From the NCBI GenBank assembly GCA_005790565.1, contig SXUJ01000157.1, positions 1 to 36,105 of the forward strand: 36,105 nt of DNA. The letters run 5' to 3'. Position 1 is the stretch's first letter. Each line of letters begins with the position of its first letter. Source of the DNA: Planctomycetia bacterium (lineage in GTDB: Bacteria; Planctomycetota; Phycisphaerae; Phycisphaerales; SM1A02). The translations under genes and the position numbers were made by a program. The notes under the pieces were generated by a model. The model ran no database searches, was not told where the DNA came from, and saw nothing but the letters and a program-made list of their open reading frames with translations. This document shows, one piece after another, positions 16,426-27,316 of this stretch.

Positions 16426-17284
16426 CCGTGCCATTCGATGTTTCGACGACCGACTGCGCGGTGCCAGCGCCAAGTTCGACTTGTGCAACGGTTTCACCAA
16501 GGCGCGGTGTTCGCATGCGCTTGCCTGTGTCGCGAAGCACGATGCCCCCCGCCGTTGTGCGAAGCGTTGCGACGCCGTCATAGGCGGCGCTGACCGAAAC
16601 AGTCACTGGGCCATTTGTGGTTTCGATTTTGAACTCCGCATCGGCGGCATCTGCGTAACGCAGGGAAACCGGCGCATGCTTGGATGCGATGTGTACATCC
16701 CGCATCGCCTCGAAAACATCAATCGTGCCATTCTCCGATTGCACATCAATCACGCCGGTACACCCGCGAAGCAACACGCTCCCGTTGGCGCCGCGAAGTC
16801 GCAGCTTTCCCGCCACGCCCGTGGCCTTCATCGCGCCATTCCTCGCACGAATCGAGGTGTCAGCGGCCGCGAAAGTTCGAACCGTCACATCCACGCGCTC
16901 GCCGGGACGCATGCCGTCAACCAGAATCGGTTCCACGAGAATCAATCCGTCGGCGGTGCGCGCAGCGTAAAGGCGAAGGGTCGCGCACCGCTTTGCCAGT
17001 TCAGCCGCATCGCGGCCGACGAGGCGAAAGACTGCCTGCACATTGGTACAGGTCAGCGATGGGTCCACTTCAACGGTGACATCGCCAGCATCACAACCAA
17101 TCACGAGCCTCTCGGCCTCGCTGTCGCTGCGTTGCTCAATGTCTGCGCTGCGCGACTCGGTCGCAATCGGCGGGTCGTCTGCACGCAGTTGCTTCGTGCA
17201 CATCAATCCGAGCGCGCACACGAACAGGCGAATCACTGCCCACGATGGAGAAACGGATATCGGTCGAAAGCGGATTCCTCGCAT
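16361..17284 (-). CDS. Exported DUF4097-like beta-repeat protein
   Basis: This 307-residue protein starts MRGIRFRPISVSPSWAV and has a signal peptide ending near LRAD. The body is built of short repeated strands with alternating N-G and D-V-x-I patterns: DTSIRARNGAMKATGV, KLRLRGANGSVLLRGC, DVQSENGTIDVFEA, FKIETTNGPVTVSVS, VVETSNGTVILEA. This is the look of DUF4097/putative-adhesin beta-helix proteins. Their function is mostly unknown; an envelope location is inferred from the signal. The reading frame extends upstream to 17548, but that part looks non-coding. The 3' end overlaps the DMT transporter tail-to-tail. Confidence 0.75.
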   Translation of the reverse strand: MRGIRFRPISVSPSWAVIRLFVCALGLMCTKQLRADDPPIATESRSADIEQRSDSEAERLVIGCDAGDVTVEVDPSLTCTNVQAVFRLVGRDAAELAKRCATLRLYAARTADGLILVEPILVDGMRPGERVDVTVRTFAAADTSIRARNGAMKATGVAGKLRLRGANGSVLLRGCTGVIDVQSENGTIDVFEAMRDVHIASKHAPVSLRYADAADAEFKIETTNGPVTVSVSAAYDGVATLRTTAGGIVLRDTGKRMRTPRLGETVAQVELGAGTAQSVVETSNGTVILEARLAPTPVAPTDSASRP

Positions 17285-17390
17285 GTGTGTGTAGAGCATG
17301 GGTTTGAGCGAGCAGTTCCGCAACCCCCTTTCGTTATTGGCTACACATTTCTTGCGCTGTTCGAAGCCGAGGCTGGCTGCCGAAACAACC

Positions 17391-17442
17391 GTTGTCGCAG
17401 CGTGATGCGTGTCACGCGGACAACAACCGGGAGGATCCCGGT
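17391..17442. promoter_or_regulatory. Two stacked inverted repeats before the B12-fold gene
   Basis: GTTGTC (17391-17396) and GCGTGA (17400-17405) pair with TCACGC (17412-17417) and GACAAC (17419-17424). The result is a 12-bp stem with a small internal loop. Directly after it, ACCGGGA (17426-17432) pairs with TCCCGGT (17436-17442). They lie in the 225-base divergent region and would be in the leader of the gene at 17510, or act as operator sites for both genes. They do not match the cobalamin riboswitch core. Confidence 0.45.
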
Positions 17443-17509
17443 CCTCGAAAGCAGCCAAGGCGCACTCTGGATGGTGCCTAAGGCCTCTGGCTCTAAGCCC
17501 CTCACTCTC

Positions 17510-18202
17510 ATGAACATTGAACGCAGCATCGAGCAACTCCACTCGCACCTCGTCTCAGGCGAGCGCCGCAGCGCACGAAGATTCGTCAACTCCCTTTACA
17601 ACTCCGGTGCGGACGCTGAATCGCTCGCGAAGGACCTCTTCTGGCCACTCCTTGAAATGACGAGCACGCTCTTCCGCAAGGATCAGATGACGACGCTCGC
17701 ACACCACTACTCGACACGCATGCTCCGTATGCTCGTCGATCAAGCGCAGGCGCGTTATGAAGAGAAGCCACTTCGCGGCCGATCCATCTGCATCTTCTGT
17801 GGTCCAAACGAAACCGAAGAGCTCGCCGGCCAGATGGTCGCTGATCTTCTCGAAGCAGATGGATATGAGGTGACCTTTGCGGGCGGGGGCGTCGCGAACG
17901 ATGACATCTCCGAAGAACTCGCACACCGACAGCCTGATGTCCTTCTCCTGTTCGCTTCGAGCGCGAAAGATGCGCCAATGATTCGCGAACTCATCGATTC
18001 GATTCGAGAGAAGAACGCGCACCCCTCAATGCAAATCGCGGTTGGTGGTGGAATCTTCAATCGTGCGCCAGGACTCGCTGAGGAAATCGGTGCGGACATC
18101 AGCGCGAAAGGCCCTTCGGATCTTCTCACTCGACTCGTCCAACTCGAAACCGTCCGCAACGAGCGCTGGGCGAAGAAGCTCAAAGTCCGCGCTGCGGCCT
18201 AA
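17510..18202 (+). CDS. CarH-like B12-binding-fold protein without DNA-binding domain
   Basis: This 230-residue protein comprises a helical bundle (about 1-85) and a Rossmann-like B12-binding domain (about 90-210: RSICIFCGPNETEELAGQMV, GYEVTFAGGGV, PDVLLLFASSAKD, MQIAVGGGIF, GADISAKGPSDLL). The layout matches the cobalamin modules of CarH/LitR photoreceptors, but the MerR-type DNA-binding domain is missing. Key positions differ: the DxHxxG motif that supplies the cobalt-binding His reads TEELAG (102-107), and the capping Wx9EH motif reads Phe55 with His65-His66. Corrinoid binding, if any, should be base-on or His65/66-based, or the protein may have lost it. It could be a sensor partner acting through protein contacts. 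A start at 17471 is possible. It ends at a strong terminator. Confidence 0.75.
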   Translation: MNIERSIEQLHSHLVSGERRSARRFVNSLYNSGADAESLAKDLFWPLLEMTSTLFRKDQMTTLAHHYSTRMLRMLVDQAQARYEEKPLRGRSICIFCGPNETEELAGQMVADLLEADGYEVTFAGGGVANDDISEELAHRQPDVLLLFASSAKDAPMIRELIDSIREKNAHPSMQIAVGGGIFNRAPGLAEEIGADISAKGPSDLLTRLVQLETVRNERWAKKLKVRAAA

Positions 18203-21721: not shown

Positions 21722-22648
21722 TCAAACATCAGACTGTGCCAGTCGAAGTGCAGCTTCCTTCGCTTCGCAGCTTGGATTGCATTCAACGCCAATAGGCTTC
21801 TTGTACCCAAGGTCGCGTAGTTCTTTGTACACGCGGGCGTAGGAGATCTCTCCGGTGCCCGGCTCCATGCGACCTGGATTGTCGGCGATTTGAATGTAGC
21901 CCACTTGATCGAAGCCCTCGCGGAGTCGCCGACAGAGATCCCCTTCGCTGATTTGCATGTGATAGAGATCCCAATTGATCTTGACCCAAGGTGATGCAAC
22001 CTCGCGACAGATGCGTACAGGGTCAGGGCTTCCCCACAGGCAGTGACCCTTGTGATCGTTGCGAATGTTCATCGGCTCCAGAATGAGCATGACCTCATGC
22101 TTCGCTGCGATCGGCGCAAGTCGCTTGAGCACTTTGGTGACCTGTGCGTGCATGTCAGCCTTCGAGACACCCGCGATGTCGTTCCCCGCAACGACCGTCA
22201 TCATGGGCGCACTGATCTCTTTGGCGAAAAGGCACGAGGCTTCTACTTCAGCAACGCACGCCTCTTCAAACTTGGGGTCGTTCATCCCGGGCACGAAACC
22301 CCAAGCTGTGAACTGCGTCACCTGCACGCCAGTTTCTGCGAGTGCTGCTTTGATCGCCGCTGCGTCCTTGTTGCGCCACGGCCAGAACTCCACGAATTCA
22401 AAGCCAAGATCTGCTGTCGCTCGGATGCGATCTGCAAACGGCAGGTTGCCAAACCACATTTCGATGTTGATCGCAAACTTCATGTTCGGCGTTCGTCCTG
22501 GCTTGTTGGGATCGAGCGCGACCTTGCCAGCGGCTGCGGTCTCAACTTGCGGAAGGTGGCTCGCCGGCGCGATCGACGCGATTGACACGGCGCCCATTGC
22601 TCCAAGGAAGGTACGGCGCGCAGCGAAGGGATCAGCATGTTGCGACAT
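21722..22648 (-). CDS. Hydroxypyruvate isomerase-like TIM-barrel protein with Tat-like signal
   Basis: This 308-residue protein starts MSQHADPFAARRTFLGAMGAV, a twin-arginine-like signal (RRTFLG) that predicts export of the folded enzyme. The body is an AP-endonuclease-2-type barrel close to Hyi: LILEPMNIRNDHKGHCLWGS, VKINWDLYHMQISEGDLCRRL, YIQIADNPGRMEPGTGEISY and IGVECNPSCE. The Glu, Asp, His and Glu metal ligands are visible. Hyi converts hydroxypyruvate to tartronate semialdehyde, but an exported homologue beside a putative sugar dehydrogenase could act on a keto-sugar. It is the first gene of the operon with yceI, GH29 and xylA. Confidence 0.85.
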   Translation of the reverse strand: MSQHADPFAARRTFLGAMGAVSIASIAPASHLPQVETAAAGKVALDPNKPGRTPNMKFAINIEMWFGNLPFADRIRATADLGFEFVEFWPWRNKDAAAIKAALAETGVQVTQFTAWGFVPGMNDPKFEEACVAEVEASCLFAKEISAPMMTVVAGNDIAGVSKADMHAQVTKVLKRLAPIAAKHEVMLILEPMNIRNDHKGHCLWGSPDPVRICREVASPWVKINWDLYHMQISEGDLCRRLREGFDQVGYIQIADNPGRMEPGTGEISYARVYKELRDLGYKKPIGVECNPSCEAKEAALRLAQSDV

Positions 22649-22654
22649 TCGCGT

Positions 22655-22675
22655 GATGCTATCGCCGATAGCATC
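22655..22675. promoter_or_regulatory. 21-bp palindromic operator candidate between divergent genes
   Basis: GATGCTATCG (22655-22664) and CGATAGCATC (22666-22675) are perfect reverse complements separated by one C. They fill most of the 37-base gap between the start of the isomerase operon (22648, minus) and the start of the heme protein (22686, plus). A dimeric regulator bound here could control both sides. No regulator gene is seen in the window. Confidence 0.65.
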
Positions 22676-22685
22676 TCGCACTCTC

Positions 22686-25600
22686 ATGTGCTCAAGAGGT
22701 TCCACTCAATTCTTCGCGTTTGCAGCCAGTGCACTGGCGACCGTTGCGCCCAACAGCAGCCTCTTGGCACGAGTGCCACCCACTGAGGCGGAGAACGCAG
22801 CGCTTGCGGAAGCGCACCCGAAACTCACCGACCCCTGCAAGCTCCGGCCGGTCGCTGGATTGTCGTGCCGCATGATCGCCGTCTATCCAACGATTGATGA
22901 TCCTGTCGCGATTGCGATCGATGAGCAGGGTCGCATCTTCGTTGCGGAGAGTGATCGGCAAGAACTCGGCGTCGAAGACAATCGATCGAGTCGATGGTGG
23001 TTGCTTGATGACCTGCAATCCCAATCGACCGCCGATCGACTCAAGATGTACGAGAAGTGGGAAGCGAAGCGAGAAGGCGGTATGGCGTACTACAGAAAGT
23101 ACGAGGATCGCGTCTCGATGCTTGAAGACACCGATGGGGACGGCTTGCTCGATCGGCGGAGTCTTTTCGCGGGCCCGTTCAACGACCCACTTGACGGAAC
23201 GGGCGCGGGGCTCCTCGTTCGCGACGGGGCAGTTTGGTACACCAACATTCCGTCGCTCTGGCGACTGCGCGATCGCGACAACGATCGTCGCGCAGAAATC
23301 GAAGAGTCTGTGTACGACGGATTTGGTGTGCGCGTTGCGCTGCGTGGTCACGACATGCACGGCCTCGCGTGGGGGCCTGACGGGAAGCTCTATTGGTCCA
23401 TCGGCGATCGCGGCTACAACCTCCGCACACCAGAGGGCGAAGTGCTCAAGGACCCGCGCTCTGGAGCGGTCTTCCGCTGCAATCCGGATGGCAGTGCAAT
23501 CGAACTCTTCTGCACCGGTCTTCGCAATCCGCAGGAACTTGCGTTCGATGACTTCGGCAACCTCTTCACGGGTGACAACAACTCTGATGGAGGAGATCTC
23601 GCGCGATTCGTCTACTGTGTAGAAGGAGGCGAAACAGGTTGGCGCATGGAGTACCAGACGCTCGACGGAGTCAATCAACGCGGGCCGTGGAATCAGGAAG
23701 GCATCTGGCATTTGCGCGCGGACCTTGCACCGACGAAAGTTGCATCGAGCAATCCGTCGCAACCCGCGTGGACGATTCCGCCTCTTGACCATGTAAGCAG
23801 TGGGCCGAGCGGACTTGTGTGCTATCCAGGTACAGGCCTTGACGCGTCCTATCAAGGCGCGTTCTTCCTCTGCGACTTTCTCGGCGGCGCGTCGTACAGC
23901 CAAGTGCTCGATATCCGGATCCAACCCCTTGGCGCCGGTTTCCAAGTCACGAGCGTCACGCCCTTCATCGAAAATGTCCTCGCGACCGACATCGACTTCG
24001 CGCCCGATGGCCGCATCATCATCAGTGACTGGGGTGATGGTTGGTACTCCGCGAAGAAGGGGGAACTCTACGCCGTTTGGGATCCCAAGCACATCCAAGA
24101 TGCGAGCGTGCTCTCGACTGCCCAACTCTTGCGTGAAGGGTTTGCGCAGCGCGACAGCGATGAGCTTCGCGATCTGCTCGCACACGCTGATCGCCGCGTC
24201 CGTGCTCGCGCGCAATGGGAGCTCGCCTCACGCGGAAGCCAGACCACCGCGCTTCTTGGCGATACGGCGACCATCGCGCCCAACCAGCTCGCGCGCGTGC
24301 ACGCGATCTGGGCCCTGGGACAGCAGGCACAGATTCGCCGCGCGAGCAATCCGAGTGCGAGTGATCGCATGGACCCAATGCGATTCATCGCCCCCCTGCT
24401 CGATGATGTTGATCCAGAGATTCGCGCGCAATCGTCGAAGGTGCTTGGAGAAGCGAGAGTATTGACCGTCGCGCCGAAGCTCGCAGATCTCTGCGCCGAT
24501 CCTTCGCTTCGCGTGCGCTACTTTGCAAGCATGGCGCTCGGACGGATGCGAGCGATCGAAGAGGCGCCATCCATCATCTCTATGATTGCGGAGAACAACG
24601 ACCAGGATGTGTTCCTGCGGCATGCGGGCGTGATGGCCCTGCATTGGATGCAAGATCCAATCAAGCTTGGCGAGTTTGCAGCCGATCCGCGCCCTTCGGT
24701 TCGACTCGCGGCGCTTCTGGCAATGCGCAAGGCGGCCGATCCACGCATCGCGCAATTCCTCGAAGATCCAGATCGGCTCCTTCGCCACGAGGCCGCGCGC
24801 GCGATCAACGATCTCGAACTCAATCCACTCACCCCGAAACTTGCGGGATCGCTCGTTCGAATGAACTCACAACTCGATGCGGTTCCGACCGGCGCGCCCG
24901 CTATGGCGCCGACGCACGCCTTCACTCGCGAGGTCTGGCAACTCGATCGCGCCGCAACCGCGAGCGATCTTGGGGATGCGTCTCGCTTCGCCACGCCGCC
25001 GACAACGACAACATCGCTTGAAACCCCCGACGCTCCGCGCAACGCAGGTGACCAGTTTCTCGCTCGCATTCGTGGTCACATCGAAGCACCATTGACCGGC
25101 GCATACACCTTTGGCATCGCGAGCGACGATGACTCTGTGTTGCTCATTGGCACAAGCGAAGATCCGACCACTCTCCGCGAAGTTGCGCGCGTCGAGGGAT
25201 ACTCCAATGTGAACGCCTTCAGTTCCGCACCATCACAGCAAAGTGCGTCGATACAACTAGAGCAGGGAAAGCGCTACGCATTCGAAGCGCGACACGCCGA
25301 AGGCGGCGGCGGCGACCACCTCACGGTTCGTTGGACACTCCCGACTGGCGTAATCGAAAGTCCGATTGGCGCAACACCTATTGATACGAGCGAGTTCCCG
25401 TTCACTCGGCGCGCCCTCTATGCGGCGCTTCGTGAAGGTACGAGTGAGCTGGCGTCCGAGGTCTGCACCTATGCGTTACAGAGCGGGAACCCTGAGCCGA
25501 TGCGCCTTGAAGCAATCGCGATTCTCGGCGAGTGGCTGTCCCCGGGCGTGCGCGATCGTGTGAACGGTGCGTATCGGCCGATCGAAAGCGCGGGGCGCGA

Positions 25601-26474
25601 CGCGATTGCCTTCAAGGCGGTCCTCGCACGAAGGCTCGCGCCACTTGCAGAGGACAGATCGGCGGCGATCCGCGCGGCGACGCTCGAGATGACTTCGAAA
25701 CATGGCGTGTCGCTCGATCCCGATGCGGCGTTACGAGCGATCGCAGATGCGACGCTGCCGCCACGCGAACGCCTCGCGAGCCTTCGGTCGCTTGCGAGTG
25801 ATGTCGCGCGACGACCAGCGGCGCTCGAAGCGGCATTCGCGTCCGACGACCCTGGATTGCGCGCACAGGCACGATCCATTCTCGCCTCGATTGACTTCCA
25901 AGCCGCGATTCCTCATCTGCAGCGTGCGATAGAGTCGGGGTCCCTGCTCGAACAGCAAATCGCGCTTCGCGATCTTGCCAAGGAACCGGAACTTGTGCAT
26001 GCCATCGTCGCTCCACTCGCGCAGCAGCTTGCCGACGGAACGCTTCCCGCCTCGTTGGCGCTTGAGGTGGAAGAATTCGCCAAGACCACGCAGGATCCGT
26101 CTATACGCGCCGAACGAGAACGATTTCTCGCGAGAACACCGAGCGAACTCCAACGCTACGAGGCCCTTTGCCTTGACGGCGGAGACACCGAACGAGGTCG
26201 ACAGTTAGTGCTCTATCACCAGTCCGCTGTCTGCGTGAAGTGCCACACCGTTGAAGGCACTGGCGGTAACGCTGCGCCAACACTTGATGGCGTCGCACTC
26301 CACGCAGACAAGCGATCTTTGTTGCAGTCACTACTCGCGCCGCAAGCAGTCGTCGTCGACGGATTCGGTCCGGTCTCGGCCATGCCGAAGATGGGATCTG
26401 TCTTGACGAATGCGGAACTGCGCGATGTTGTGGCGTACCTCTCAACACTCAAGACGCAGACGAGCAAACCATAG
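22686..26474 (+). CDS. Large PVC-type heme-binding dehydrogenase with HEAT and PA14 domains
   Basis: This 1262-residue exported protein has a signal peptide (CSRGSTQFFAFAASALATVA). A beta-propeller covers about 55-460 (VAIAIDEQGRIFVAESDRQ, HGLAWGPDGKLYWSIGDRG, TGLRNPQELAFDDFGNLFTGDNN, IDFAPDGRIIISDWGDGW). HEAT repeats follow at about 480-710 (ADRRVRARAQWELAS, DVDPEIRAQSSKVLG, DPSLRVRYFASMALG). A PA14-like domain lies near 785-890 (AYTFGIASDDDSVLLIG). More HEAT-like helices follow, then a cytochrome c domain with Cys1183, Cys1186 and His1187 (CVKCH) and AMPKMG. It is predicted to oxidise a sugar in the periplasm. The open frame extends to 22059 but only the part from the signal peptide looks coding. 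The last 26 bases overlap the next gene tail-to-tail. Confidence 0.9.
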   Translation: MCSRGSTQFFAFAASALATVAPNSSLLARVPPTEAENAALAEAHPKLTDPCKLRPVAGLSCRMIAVYPTIDDPVAIAIDEQGRIFVAESDRQELGVEDNRSSRWWLLDDLQSQSTADRLKMYEKWEAKREGGMAYYRKYEDRVSMLEDTDGDGLLDRRSLFAGPFNDPLDGTGAGLLVRDGAVWYTNIPSLWRLRDRDNDRRAEIEESVYDGFGVRVALRGHDMHGLAWGPDGKLYWSIGDRGYNLRTPEGEVLKDPRSGAVFRCNPDGSAIELFCTGLRNPQELAFDDFGNLFTGDNNSDGGDLARFVYCVEGGETGWRMEYQTLDGVNQRGPWNQEGIWHLRADLAPTKVASSNPSQPAWTIPPLDHVSSGPSGLVCYPGTGLDASYQGAFFLCDFLGGASYSQVLDIRIQPLGAGFQVTSVTPFIENVLATDIDFAPDGRIIISDWGDGWYSAKKGELYAVWDPKHIQDASVLSTAQLLREGFAQRDSDELRDLLAHADRRVRARAQWELASRGSQTTALLGDTATIAPNQLARVHAIWALGQQAQIRRASNPSASDRMDPMRFIAPLLDDVDPEIRAQSSKVLGEARVLTVAPKLADLCADPSLRVRYFASMALGRMRAIEEAPSIISMIAENNDQDVFLRHAGVMALHWMQDPIKLGEFAADPRPSVRLAALLAMRKAADPRIAQFLEDPDRLLRHEAARAINDLELNPLTPKLAGSLVRMNSQLDAVPTGAPAMAPTHAFTREVWQLDRAATASDLGDASRFATPPTTTTSLETPDAPRNAGDQFLARIRGHIEAPLTGAYTFGIASDDDSVLLIGTSEDPTTLREVARVEGYSNVNAFSSAPSQQSASIQLEQGKRYAFEARHAEGGGGDHLTVRWTLPTGVIESPIGATPIDTSEFPFTRRALYAALREGTSELASEVCTYALQSGNPEPMRLEAIAILGEWLSPGVRDRVNGAYRPIESAGRDAIAFKAVLARRLAPLAEDRSAAIRAATLEMTSKHGVSLDPDAALRAIADATLPPRERLASLRSLASDVARRPAALEAAFASDDPGLRAQARSILASIDFQAAIPHLQRAIESGSLLEQQIALRDLAKEPELVHAIVAPLAQQLADGTLPASLALEVEEFAKTTQDPSIRAERERFLARTPSELQRYEALCLDGGDTERGRQLVLYHQSAVCVKCHTVEGTGGNAAPTLDGVALHADKRSLLQSLLAPQAVVVDGFGPVSAMPKMGSVLTNAELRDVVAYLSTLKTQTSKP

Positions 26475-27024
26475 CGCGTCGGCGTGATCGTCCAAGTGCA
26501 CTCAGCGCAAAGAGCCCAAGTGCGCCCGGCGCCGGCACTGCCGCAGGCGCTCCCCACAGGTTGAACACCCAGCCGTCCCAACTCCCGTTGGTCACTGCAC
26601 GATCGCTGAACCCAACCCACGATTCACTCCACGCTTCGCCCGCGGACTCGCGCGTCCAGTAGTGCCAGTAATCAAGATAGTCGGGAGCCGTGCCAAATCC
26701 TGAAGCGAAATCCGATCCGATGCCAACGCTGAACAAGGCGTCGCCGAAGGAAAAGGTGATGACCTCGTGCGAGAAGAACGATGGTTGCGCCTCCGCGATG
26801 ATCGCGAAGAGGTCATCGCCAAAGAGTCCCTCGCCATGCGCGACTTCATAGATGTAGGTATTCGTCTCGTTCGTACCGAGCGTGACGAAATCGAATTGCA
26901 CCGTCGAAACCTGCGTGCCACTCCCCACTGCGTAACTTCCAACGATGCCGCCGCTCGCGGTTGCGGCAACAACGAGTGCGAGTGCGTTCCCAATCGACGC
27001 GGCTGTGAAAACTGAAACCTGCAT
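26449..27024 (-). CDS. PEP-CTERM-like exported protein under a riboswitch-like leader
   Basis: This 191-residue protein starts MQVSVFTAASIGNALALVVA with a signal peptide. The C terminus has the sorting-signal form VPAPGALGLFALSALGRSRRRA: a VPAPGA motif, a membrane segment and a basic tail, as recognised by exosortases. The middle (about 30-155) is rich in Gly, Phe, Tyr, Ser and acidic residues (GSYAVGSGTQ, FGDDLFAIIAEAQPSFFSHE, YLDYWHYWTRE) and has no family I know. AAGGG nine bases upstream supports ATG 27024. A cobalamin-riboswitch-like RNA precedes it, so expression may respond to B12. No exosortase gene is in the window. Confidence 0.8.
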   Translation of the reverse strand: MQVSVFTAASIGNALALVVAATASGGIVGSYAVGSGTQVSTVQFDFVTLGTNETNTYIYEVAHGEGLFGDDLFAIIAEAQPSFFSHEVITFSFGDALFSVGIGSDFASGFGTAPDYLDYWHYWTRESAGEAWSESWVGFSDRAVTNGSWDGWVFNLWGAPAAVPAPGALGLFALSALGRSRRRAMVCSSAS

Positions 27025-27039
27025 ACGAATAACCCTTCT

Positions 27040-27058
27040 GGCTCGATGTGCGCGAGCC
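27040..27058 (-). promoter_or_regulatory. Hairpin next to the ribosome site of the PEP-CTERM-like gene
   Basis: On the minus strand GGCTCG pairs with CGAGCC over 6 bp around a seven-base loop, ending just before AGAAGGG, the likely ribosome site. It could be part of the expression platform of the upstream riboswitch-like element by occluding or exposing that site; this is inference. Confidence 0.4.
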
Positions 27059-27193
27059 AAAGCAAACACATCCCCTCCGTGTGGCACTTTCATAAAGTCG
27101 AGGCGCATTGCCGTGCGTGTTCATCGCCATTGGCGCGAACCCGTAGGGCAGCTGCAGCCGGCGCACCTCATGAGCGGAGGGGTCGGAAAGATT

Positions 27194-27290
27194 GGTTCGC
27201 CAGGTCGACCCGACTTCCGCACGAGCACTTCGCTCGCGCGGTTCACGGTGACGCCTTCGTAGCGGATTCACACCGCTTTCGCCTGACGCG
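27194..27290 (-). ncRNA. Cobalamin riboswitch candidate
   Basis: Read on the minus strand, the element has the parts of a cobalamin riboswitch core in order. The stem CGTCAGG (27288-27282) pairs with CCTGGCG (27204-27198), one G-U pair. GCGAAA is followed by the short hairpin GCGG-TGTGAAT-CCGC (27276-27262), containing the conserved GGTG..AATCC. Next come GTCACCGTGAA, matching the ACTGTGA region, an 8-bp hairpin GCGCGAGC/GCTCGTGC, and the B12-box-like AGTCGGGTCGACCTGGC (27215-27199). Downstream GGTTCGC (27141-27135) can pair with GCGAACC (27200-27194), a possible switching helix. It lies about 170 bases before the PEP-CTERM-like start. Certain assignment needs a covariance-model search. Confidence 0.72.
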
Positions 27291-27295
27291 CCAAA

Positions 27296-27316
27296 TGTCC
27301 CGCAACACACGGGACA
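27296..27316 (-). terminator. Intrinsic terminator hairpin of the glycosyltransferase gene
   Basis: On the minus strand TGTCCCG (27316-27310) pairs with CGGGACA (27302-27296) over 7 bp with a seven-base loop, followed by TTT. It starts 18 bases after the stop of the membrane glycosyltransferase gene and directly precedes the riboswitch candidate, separating the two transcripts. Confidence 0.65.

Follow-up and report, generated by a model that had tools for sequence, protein, structure and literature searches.

The closest described relatives of the leader reported here are the cobalamin riboswitches (Rfam clan CL00101: RF00174 Cobalamin and RF01482 AdoCbl). It shares with them the order of P3, P4 with GGTG..AATCC, P5/L5, P6 and J6/3, and the complementarity between L5 and L13. 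Kissing of L5 and L13 and a P13 stem in competition with a downstream pairing are also known from the corrinoid riboswitches of P. megaterium metE and A. halodurans cobT (PMC10653944). Kissing loops of three base pairs function in P. megaterium (PMC10653944). In contrast to the Rfam families, the variant in the window (the whole stretch of 36,105 nucleotides that was analysed) scores below the gathering thresholds and its L5 ends with GCG. Many of the leaders studied here have two L13-like hairpins, and the controlled gene encodes a predicted carrier-like surface protein. The metE and cobT riboswitches are described with one L13 and with transcription termination (PMC10653944), whereas two L13-like hairpins are present here and a scan of the window leader for promoters and terminators found neither. 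In the literature consulted, including PMC10653944 and PMC9600662, no description of two L13 hairpins was found.

The encoded protein resembles the transcobalamin-like clade of the SLBB beta-grasp superfamily (Burroughs et al. 2007, PMC1796856) in its predicted beta-domain fold and its export signal, and planctomycete members of this clade have been reported there. Differing from that clade, the protein of the window consists of a beta domain alone, lacks the alpha/alpha toroid, has a PEP-CTERM-like tail and is controlled by a riboswitch. The alpha domain of the animal B12 carriers is likewise missing. In the literature consulted on planctomycete cobalamin riboswitches, PEP-CTERM and bacterial transcobalamin-like proteins, only PMC1796856 was relevant; it does not deal with riboswitches as far as its main text goes, where the word "riboswitch" does not occur. 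Surface capture of B12 under riboswitch control, as proposed here, has a counterpart in BtuG, a B12-binding surface lipoprotein of Bacteroides (PMC6143338). BtuG is encoded in btuB operons (PMC6143338), whereas the gene of the window is preceded by a leader of its own and adjoined by a convergent gene.

The leader and its gene are located on the minus strand and comprise the following features.

27188–27308 (−), divergent cobalamin (AdoCbl-type) riboswitch aptamer
Within the aptamer (−), P3 outer stem, CGTCAGG / CCTGGCG, from sequence
27261–27277 (−), P4 hairpin AGC-GGTGTGAATCC-GCT with GGTG..AATCC, from covariation in 51 sequences
27250–27259 (−), P5/L5, CGA-AGGCG-TC, with L5 as candidate kissing loop, from covariation in 51 sequences
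27243–27250 (−), CACCGTGA element, from sequence
27217–27242 (−), P6b hairpin, from covariation in 51 sequences
27203–27218 (−), J6/3 "B12 box" GGAAGTCGGGTCGACC, from conservation in 51 sequences
27166–27180 (−), proximal L13 hairpin CCTC-CGCTCAT-GAGG, from pairing in 18 leaders of genera g1 (the genus of the window) and g28
27072–27182 (−), long-range stem of CCCCTCCG (27175–27182) with CGGAGGGG (27072–27079), from covariation and the minimum-energy fold
27037–27061 (−), distal L13-like hairpin TTTGGCTCG-CGCACAT-CGAGCCAGA, its 3' end entering the Shine-Dalgarno sequence, from covariation
27033–27039 (−), Shine-Dalgarno sequence AGAAGGG, 8 nt before the ATG, from sequence
ATG at 27024, last base 26449 (−), gene of a predicted secreted transcobalamin-beta-like protein of 191 aa with the PEP-CTERM-like C-terminus VPAPGALGLFALSALGRSRRR, from homologues and the predicted fold

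The outer stem, the GGTG..AATCC hairpin, the CACCGTGA element, the further hairpin and the B12-box-like segment of the original prediction were all found on this strand in the order of a cobalamin riboswitch. A GTCCCG-TGTGTTG-CGGGAC hairpin (27297–27315, −) is located at the 5' side of the aptamer, where L008 and L009 hold similar sequences.

At gathering thresholds, Rfam yielded no match of any family in the window and none in 19 homologous loci. In E-value mode (521 nt, 4,227 families) the best match was RF01482 AdoCbl at 27155–27307 with 21.8 bits (E 0.1), the gathering score being 50. The leaders of 9 out of 11 homologous loci matched in this mode with scores between 24 and 47.7 bits, none of which reaches 50; those of L009 and L011 gave no match. 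Because its score stays below the curated gathering score and no gathering match was obtained, the window leader is not filed under RF01482 or RF00174 as Rfam defines them. Thus, the covariance-model search with RF00174 that had been proposed as a check failed at the curated threshold. Since Rfam's own rule gives no match, the aptamer was judged by conservation.

The alignment used for this purpose contains 51 aptamers and no more than four from any one genus; g29, g30 and leaders with an unrecognised J6/3 were left out. In this alignment 92.5% of the pairing cells are paired (71.9% in shuffles) and 188 cells have two-sided changes (64 in shuffles); none of 500 shuffles reached either value. 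When the partner is slid by one column, pairing falls to 46% or less. Two-sided changes are seen in P3, P4, the second pair of P5 and P6b. They occur at four of the five pairs of P4 (100% of cells paired) and at all four modelled pairs of P6b (81% paired), and the second pair of P5 is A-U in 44 and C-G in 7 sequences. P6a is invariant throughout. The conserved P4 loop and the B12 box of the class are both present, with A, G, C, G and G of the J6/3 motif AGYCGG invariant.

A held-out covariance model (R2) was built from 38 of the 51 sequences, after removal of eight from g1 and g28 and of five near-duplicates. It finds the window aptamer at 67.5 bits (E 6.7e-21, E-values of such models being rough), and the next-best match within the window has 9.4 bits. 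The canonical RF00174 riboswitch of the same genome (L001) is scored by R2 at 40.2 bits. Covariation and the held-out model show the P3–P6 core of the class with its compensatory changes. The window leader is thereby confirmed as a lineage-specific variant of the cobalamin-riboswitch-class aptamer, in agreement with the originally predicted cobalamin-riboswitch-like leader, for which the linkage to the gene also speaks.

A homologue of the downstream gene is present in 100 of the 181 genomes of the source's family and in 24 of its 45 genera (one match in 99 genomes, two in G167), and no homologue was found at E 1e-5 in 81 of the 181. Leaders were taken for all 101 matches. The aptamer-core motif lies upstream of 94 out of 101 matches at two mismatches or fewer, and shuffling the 99 leaders with at least 150 nt yields 0.2 on average; at three mismatches it is found in 96 (4.0 in shuffles). 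The remaining five leaders are L107 and L124, cut by contig ends, and L126, L127 and L128, which belong to distant members. By a cruder measure, for which one of two short motifs anywhere within 700 nt was enough, 92 of the 101 leaders were positive. The comparison of homologous leaders that had been suggested as a check shows that the element is kept in most of them. A further model (R1) had 51 of these leaders as its training set, so that its high scores on them arise partly by construction. At E 0.001, R1 matches 168 of the 181 genomes. The scores fall into two groups, one of 91 matches at 65–104 bits (one per genome) and the remainder at 58 bits or less; the canonical second riboswitch of the genome belongs to the lower group (39.4 bits). 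All 91 matches of the upper group share the strand of the gene and lie 52–299 nt upstream of it. Nine gene-bearing genomes (G012, G065, G089, G090, G091, G092, G102, G136 and G159) have no match of at least 65 bits. In a class-wide sample of 397 genomes, scores of at least 65 bits are restricted to the source's family.

A profile search with the protein in these 397 genomes found it in 67, of which 45 are outside the source's family. The protein family was thus noted in 145 genomes (100 within the family and 45 outside). All 45 outside genomes contain RF00174 matches above the cut-off, and in each of them such a riboswitch lies upstream of the protein match on the same strand, at a distance of 166–1,638 nt (38 within 700 nt). 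L5 of these leaders often reads TCGCG or ACGCG. Because all 45 carry the upstream RF00174 element, we take this to mean that the linkage of the gene to a corrinoid riboswitch predates the variant aptamer.

For the 191-aa protein no Pfam family exceeded its cut-off, and an NCBIfam search gave nothing useful. DUF4430 (PF14478) was unmatched in 22 members of the protein family and in the genome. A sequence search of the PDB revealed no relative (one chance match, E 0.97). A search for paralogues in the same genome gave only five weak matches (E 0.02–0.31); four of them are on the C-terminal tail and one on residues 45–135. The PEP-CTERM motif PF07589 reaches 14.7 bits with a cut-off of 20.7, and an exosortase (PF09721, 141.9 bits) is encoded on contig C66. 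Since the motif is sub-threshold, although an exosortase is present, the protein is called PEP-CTERM-like only. The exosortase-sorted surface protein of the original prediction is backed by the enzyme, with the motif below its cut-off. The last 26 bases of the gene are overlapped by its convergent neighbour, a frame of 1,471 aa (22059–26474, +) with DUF7133, HEAT repeats, PA14 and cytochrome c domains.

A single AlphaFold model, calculated from 22 sequences (pLDDT 76, pTM 0.67), consists of three strands, a helix and further strands; in the model, strands 84–91 and 94–102 come after helix 69–79 and are candidates for the beta-hairpin insert that, together with two signature glycines, marks the transcobalamin-like SLBB clade. 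In a Foldseek search of the PDB with this model, mammalian B12 carriers occupy each of the first 16 ranks (E 1.2e-3 to 0.078, probability 0.92–1.00), with the beta domain of transcobalamin at the top (E 1.2e-3, probability 1.00). The match that follows has E 0.47 and a probability of 0.02. No Foldseek match reaches E 0.001, and the TM-scores by query length are 0.33–0.42. VIA-align yielded Z-scores of 12.9 for intrinsic factor (110 residues, 2.7 Å), 11–12 for transcobalamin and 11.7 for haptocorrin. Beyond the B12 carriers, the Ruminococcus protein 3u7z has a Z-score of 10.6 and the next fold 5.8. On the predicted model, the fold is a beta-grasp like that of the transcobalamin beta domain, as in transcobalamin-like SLBB proteins, and the protein is predicted to be a domain of the kind found as beta domain in intrinsic factor, transcobalamin and haptocorrin. 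One of the matches carries the title "Beta domain of human transcobalamin bound to cyanocobalamin"; the ligand can thus be bound by a beta domain on its own. The earlier statement that the protein has no known family holds by sequence but not by predicted fold.

Genes resembling BtuF, BtuC and BtuD (periplasmic-binding protein, FecCD and ABC ATPase) are adjacent to each other on contig C8 (L159, 10302–13077, −). B12-binding domains occur at four places in the genome, three of them above the cut-off. CbiC, a protein of de novo corrin synthesis, was not detected in the genome of 177 contigs, in which the absence of one family is not proof. The gene content fits a corrinoid salvager. About 9 kb from the riboswitch, a frame at 16481–18202 (+) contains a B12-binding domain (PF02310, 50.8 bits) and PF02607 (25.2 bits).

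Downstream of the aptamer, three pairings are conserved in the 18 leaders of g1 and g28. In the proximal L13 hairpin 92% of the cells are paired with no two-sided change. In the long-range stem 90% are paired, with two-sided changes at two of nine pairs, and all eight pairs of the window leader are present in its minimum-energy fold. This stem takes up the 5' arm and the first two loop bases of the proximal hairpin; the two structures are mutually exclusive. The distal hairpin has 95% of its cells paired and two-sided changes at five of six pairs, and is also part of the minimum-energy fold. The proximal loop CGCT of the window could pair with L5 GGCG (including one G-U), and in the distal loop an A is opposite the G of L5, so that only three loop-loop pairs are possible (CGC/GCG).

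Across the family, hairpins for the L5-pairing test were chosen by a loop starting with CGC, and the test rests on the fourth position. Of the 83 proximal or single hairpins, 73 allow a pair with L5 at this position. The same holds for 29 of 32 distal hairpins, a set including single ones in g18, g32 and g35 that are possibly due to chance or lie within coding sequence; the window is among the exceptions. The partners covary, mostly as C with G, G with U and U with A. The L5-L13 complementarity expected for kissing is thus observed (Fisher p 1e-15 for the set of 83, kinship of leaders ignored). A proximal hairpin was recognised in 83 out of 96 leaders, from which 38 long leaders were drawn. 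A second L13-like hairpin is present in 25 of these 38, compared to 2.4 expected from shuffles (kinship ignored). By genus, it is found in 4/4 leaders of g1, 13/13 of g28, 3/3 of g33, 1/1 of g29, 4/6 of g36 and 0/11 of nine other genera.

In the other families, 39 leaders were inspected, from the 38 of 45 genomes in which the distance does not exceed 700 nt. Many of these leaders run from the aptamer through L13 and an intrinsic terminator to a hairpin whose loop contains the complement of L5. Of the 32 leaders that have a T-run and in which L5 was recognised, 14 show a hairpin of this type behind the T-run (0.43 expected, kinship ignored), and the pattern recurs in five other families. Intrinsic terminators are present in many of the other-family leaders of the gene (L204–L242), for example in L216, L219 and L240.

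The terminator loop itself was also considered as an L13 that covaries with L5, which is unsupported by the loop counts in 36 other-family leaders with a recognised L5. With the L5 complement CGCG, the terminator loop is CGCG in ten leaders, CGGG in four and neither in nine, and six have no recognised terminator. With CGGG as complement, the loop is CGCG in three, CGGG in one and neither in two. The one leader with CGCA has no terminator.

Very probably, the locus is a corrinoid-sensing variant of the cobalamin class that controls one gene, whose exported and probably exosortase-anchored product has a transcobalamin-beta-like domain and captures corrinoids when these are scarce. At a high corrinoid level in the cell, the aptamer would bind a corrinoid. 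In the bound aptamer, L5 would kiss the proximal L13 and then the hairpin beside the Shine-Dalgarno sequence. This would block the ribosome site, and translation would fall. Under corrinoid scarcity the protein would be made and would catch corrinoids at the surface, which may be passed on to uptake, perhaps by the BtuFCD-like system. Most likely, the riboswitch is an OFF switch. Corrinoid capture, proposed at the outset for this protein, is a well-supported prediction. It draws on the riboswitch linkage (94/101 within the family, 45/45 outside), the predicted B12-carrier fold, the exosortase, the BtuF/BtuC/BtuD-like genes, the B12-binding domains and the lack of a detected CbiC.

A common fold proves no function, beta-grasp domains are versatile and the canonical riboswitch of the genome precedes a different, dockerin-bearing secreted protein. 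The product could thus be a structural or adhesive surface protein that is made at B12 scarcity and binds no corrinoid. We consider this improbable. The fold matches single out the beta domain of B12 carriers and score higher than generic ubiquitin-like folds, B12 scavenging has already been predicted for bacterial members of the transcobalamin-like clade (PMC1796856) and the riboswitch linkage holds in all 45 genomes of other families. A different ligand of the variant (another corrinoid, a precursor or an unrelated metabolite) would be compatible with the scores below the Rfam thresholds and with an L5 ending in GCG, the reported consensus being UCCCG (PMC10653944). However, the class sequences are retained in P4, P5 and J6/3, other families have the full RF00174 element at the same place, there often with TCGCG or ACGCG as L5, and R2 recovers the canonical copy; a different ligand is very unlikely. 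Held-out model and linkage refute a chance likeness of a GC-rich intergenic stretch to an aptamer, which the Rfam E-value of 0.1 in 521 nt over all families would allow. Covariation and the RF00174 elements of the 45 other-family genomes also argue against it, and its probability is negligible.

Within the preferred reading of a corrinoid-sensing OFF switch, the role of the second hairpin is a separate matter. One L5 may have two successive kissing partners, the proximal L13 and then the L13-like hairpin by the Shine-Dalgarno sequence, so that a single ligand-binding event would check transcription and translation in turn ahead of a gene for a B12-carrier-like protein. The proximal L13 would then sit before a terminator (other families) or before the long-range stem that destroys it (g1 and g28). 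We propose this tentatively, with a likelihood slightly below even. It is also quite possible, at a likelihood somewhat below even, that the second hairpin is an ordinary stem masking the Shine-Dalgarno sequence without loop-loop kissing, and that the proximal L13 alone counts. An A opposite G at the fourth distal loop position in three of the four g1 genomes, among them that of the window, points to such a stem, as does the lack of a second hairpin in 13 of 38 long leaders and 18 of 32 other-family leaders. Its frequency among the long leaders (25 against 2.4 expected), the 29 of 32 distal loops able to pair at the variable position and its recurrence behind the T-runs of leaders from five other families (14 of 32 against 0.43) argue for kissing.

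The analysis joins three usually separate subjects, namely a corrinoid riboswitch variant that is missed by the Rfam cut-offs (window and 19 loci), a bacterial protein with a predicted fold like that of the human B12 carriers and a bacterium without a detected marker of corrin synthesis. The riboswitch suggests a probable ligand for a protein family without a passing Pfam match. If the two-hairpin platform is true, one aptamer would act on transcription and translation in turn. The riboswitch class and the B12-carrier fold are known; new is the variant of the class in front of this protein.

The only RF00174 riboswitch found in the genome belongs to L159 (G000:C8; 190–419 and 504–2242), on the same contig as the BtuF/BtuC/BtuD-like genes. 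Behind it are encoded a secreted protein with a dockerin and a prepilin-like protein with DUF1559, and no classical B12 gene. In the relatives L161 and L165, the protein behind the corresponding riboswitch has sub-threshold dockerin or EF-hand matches.
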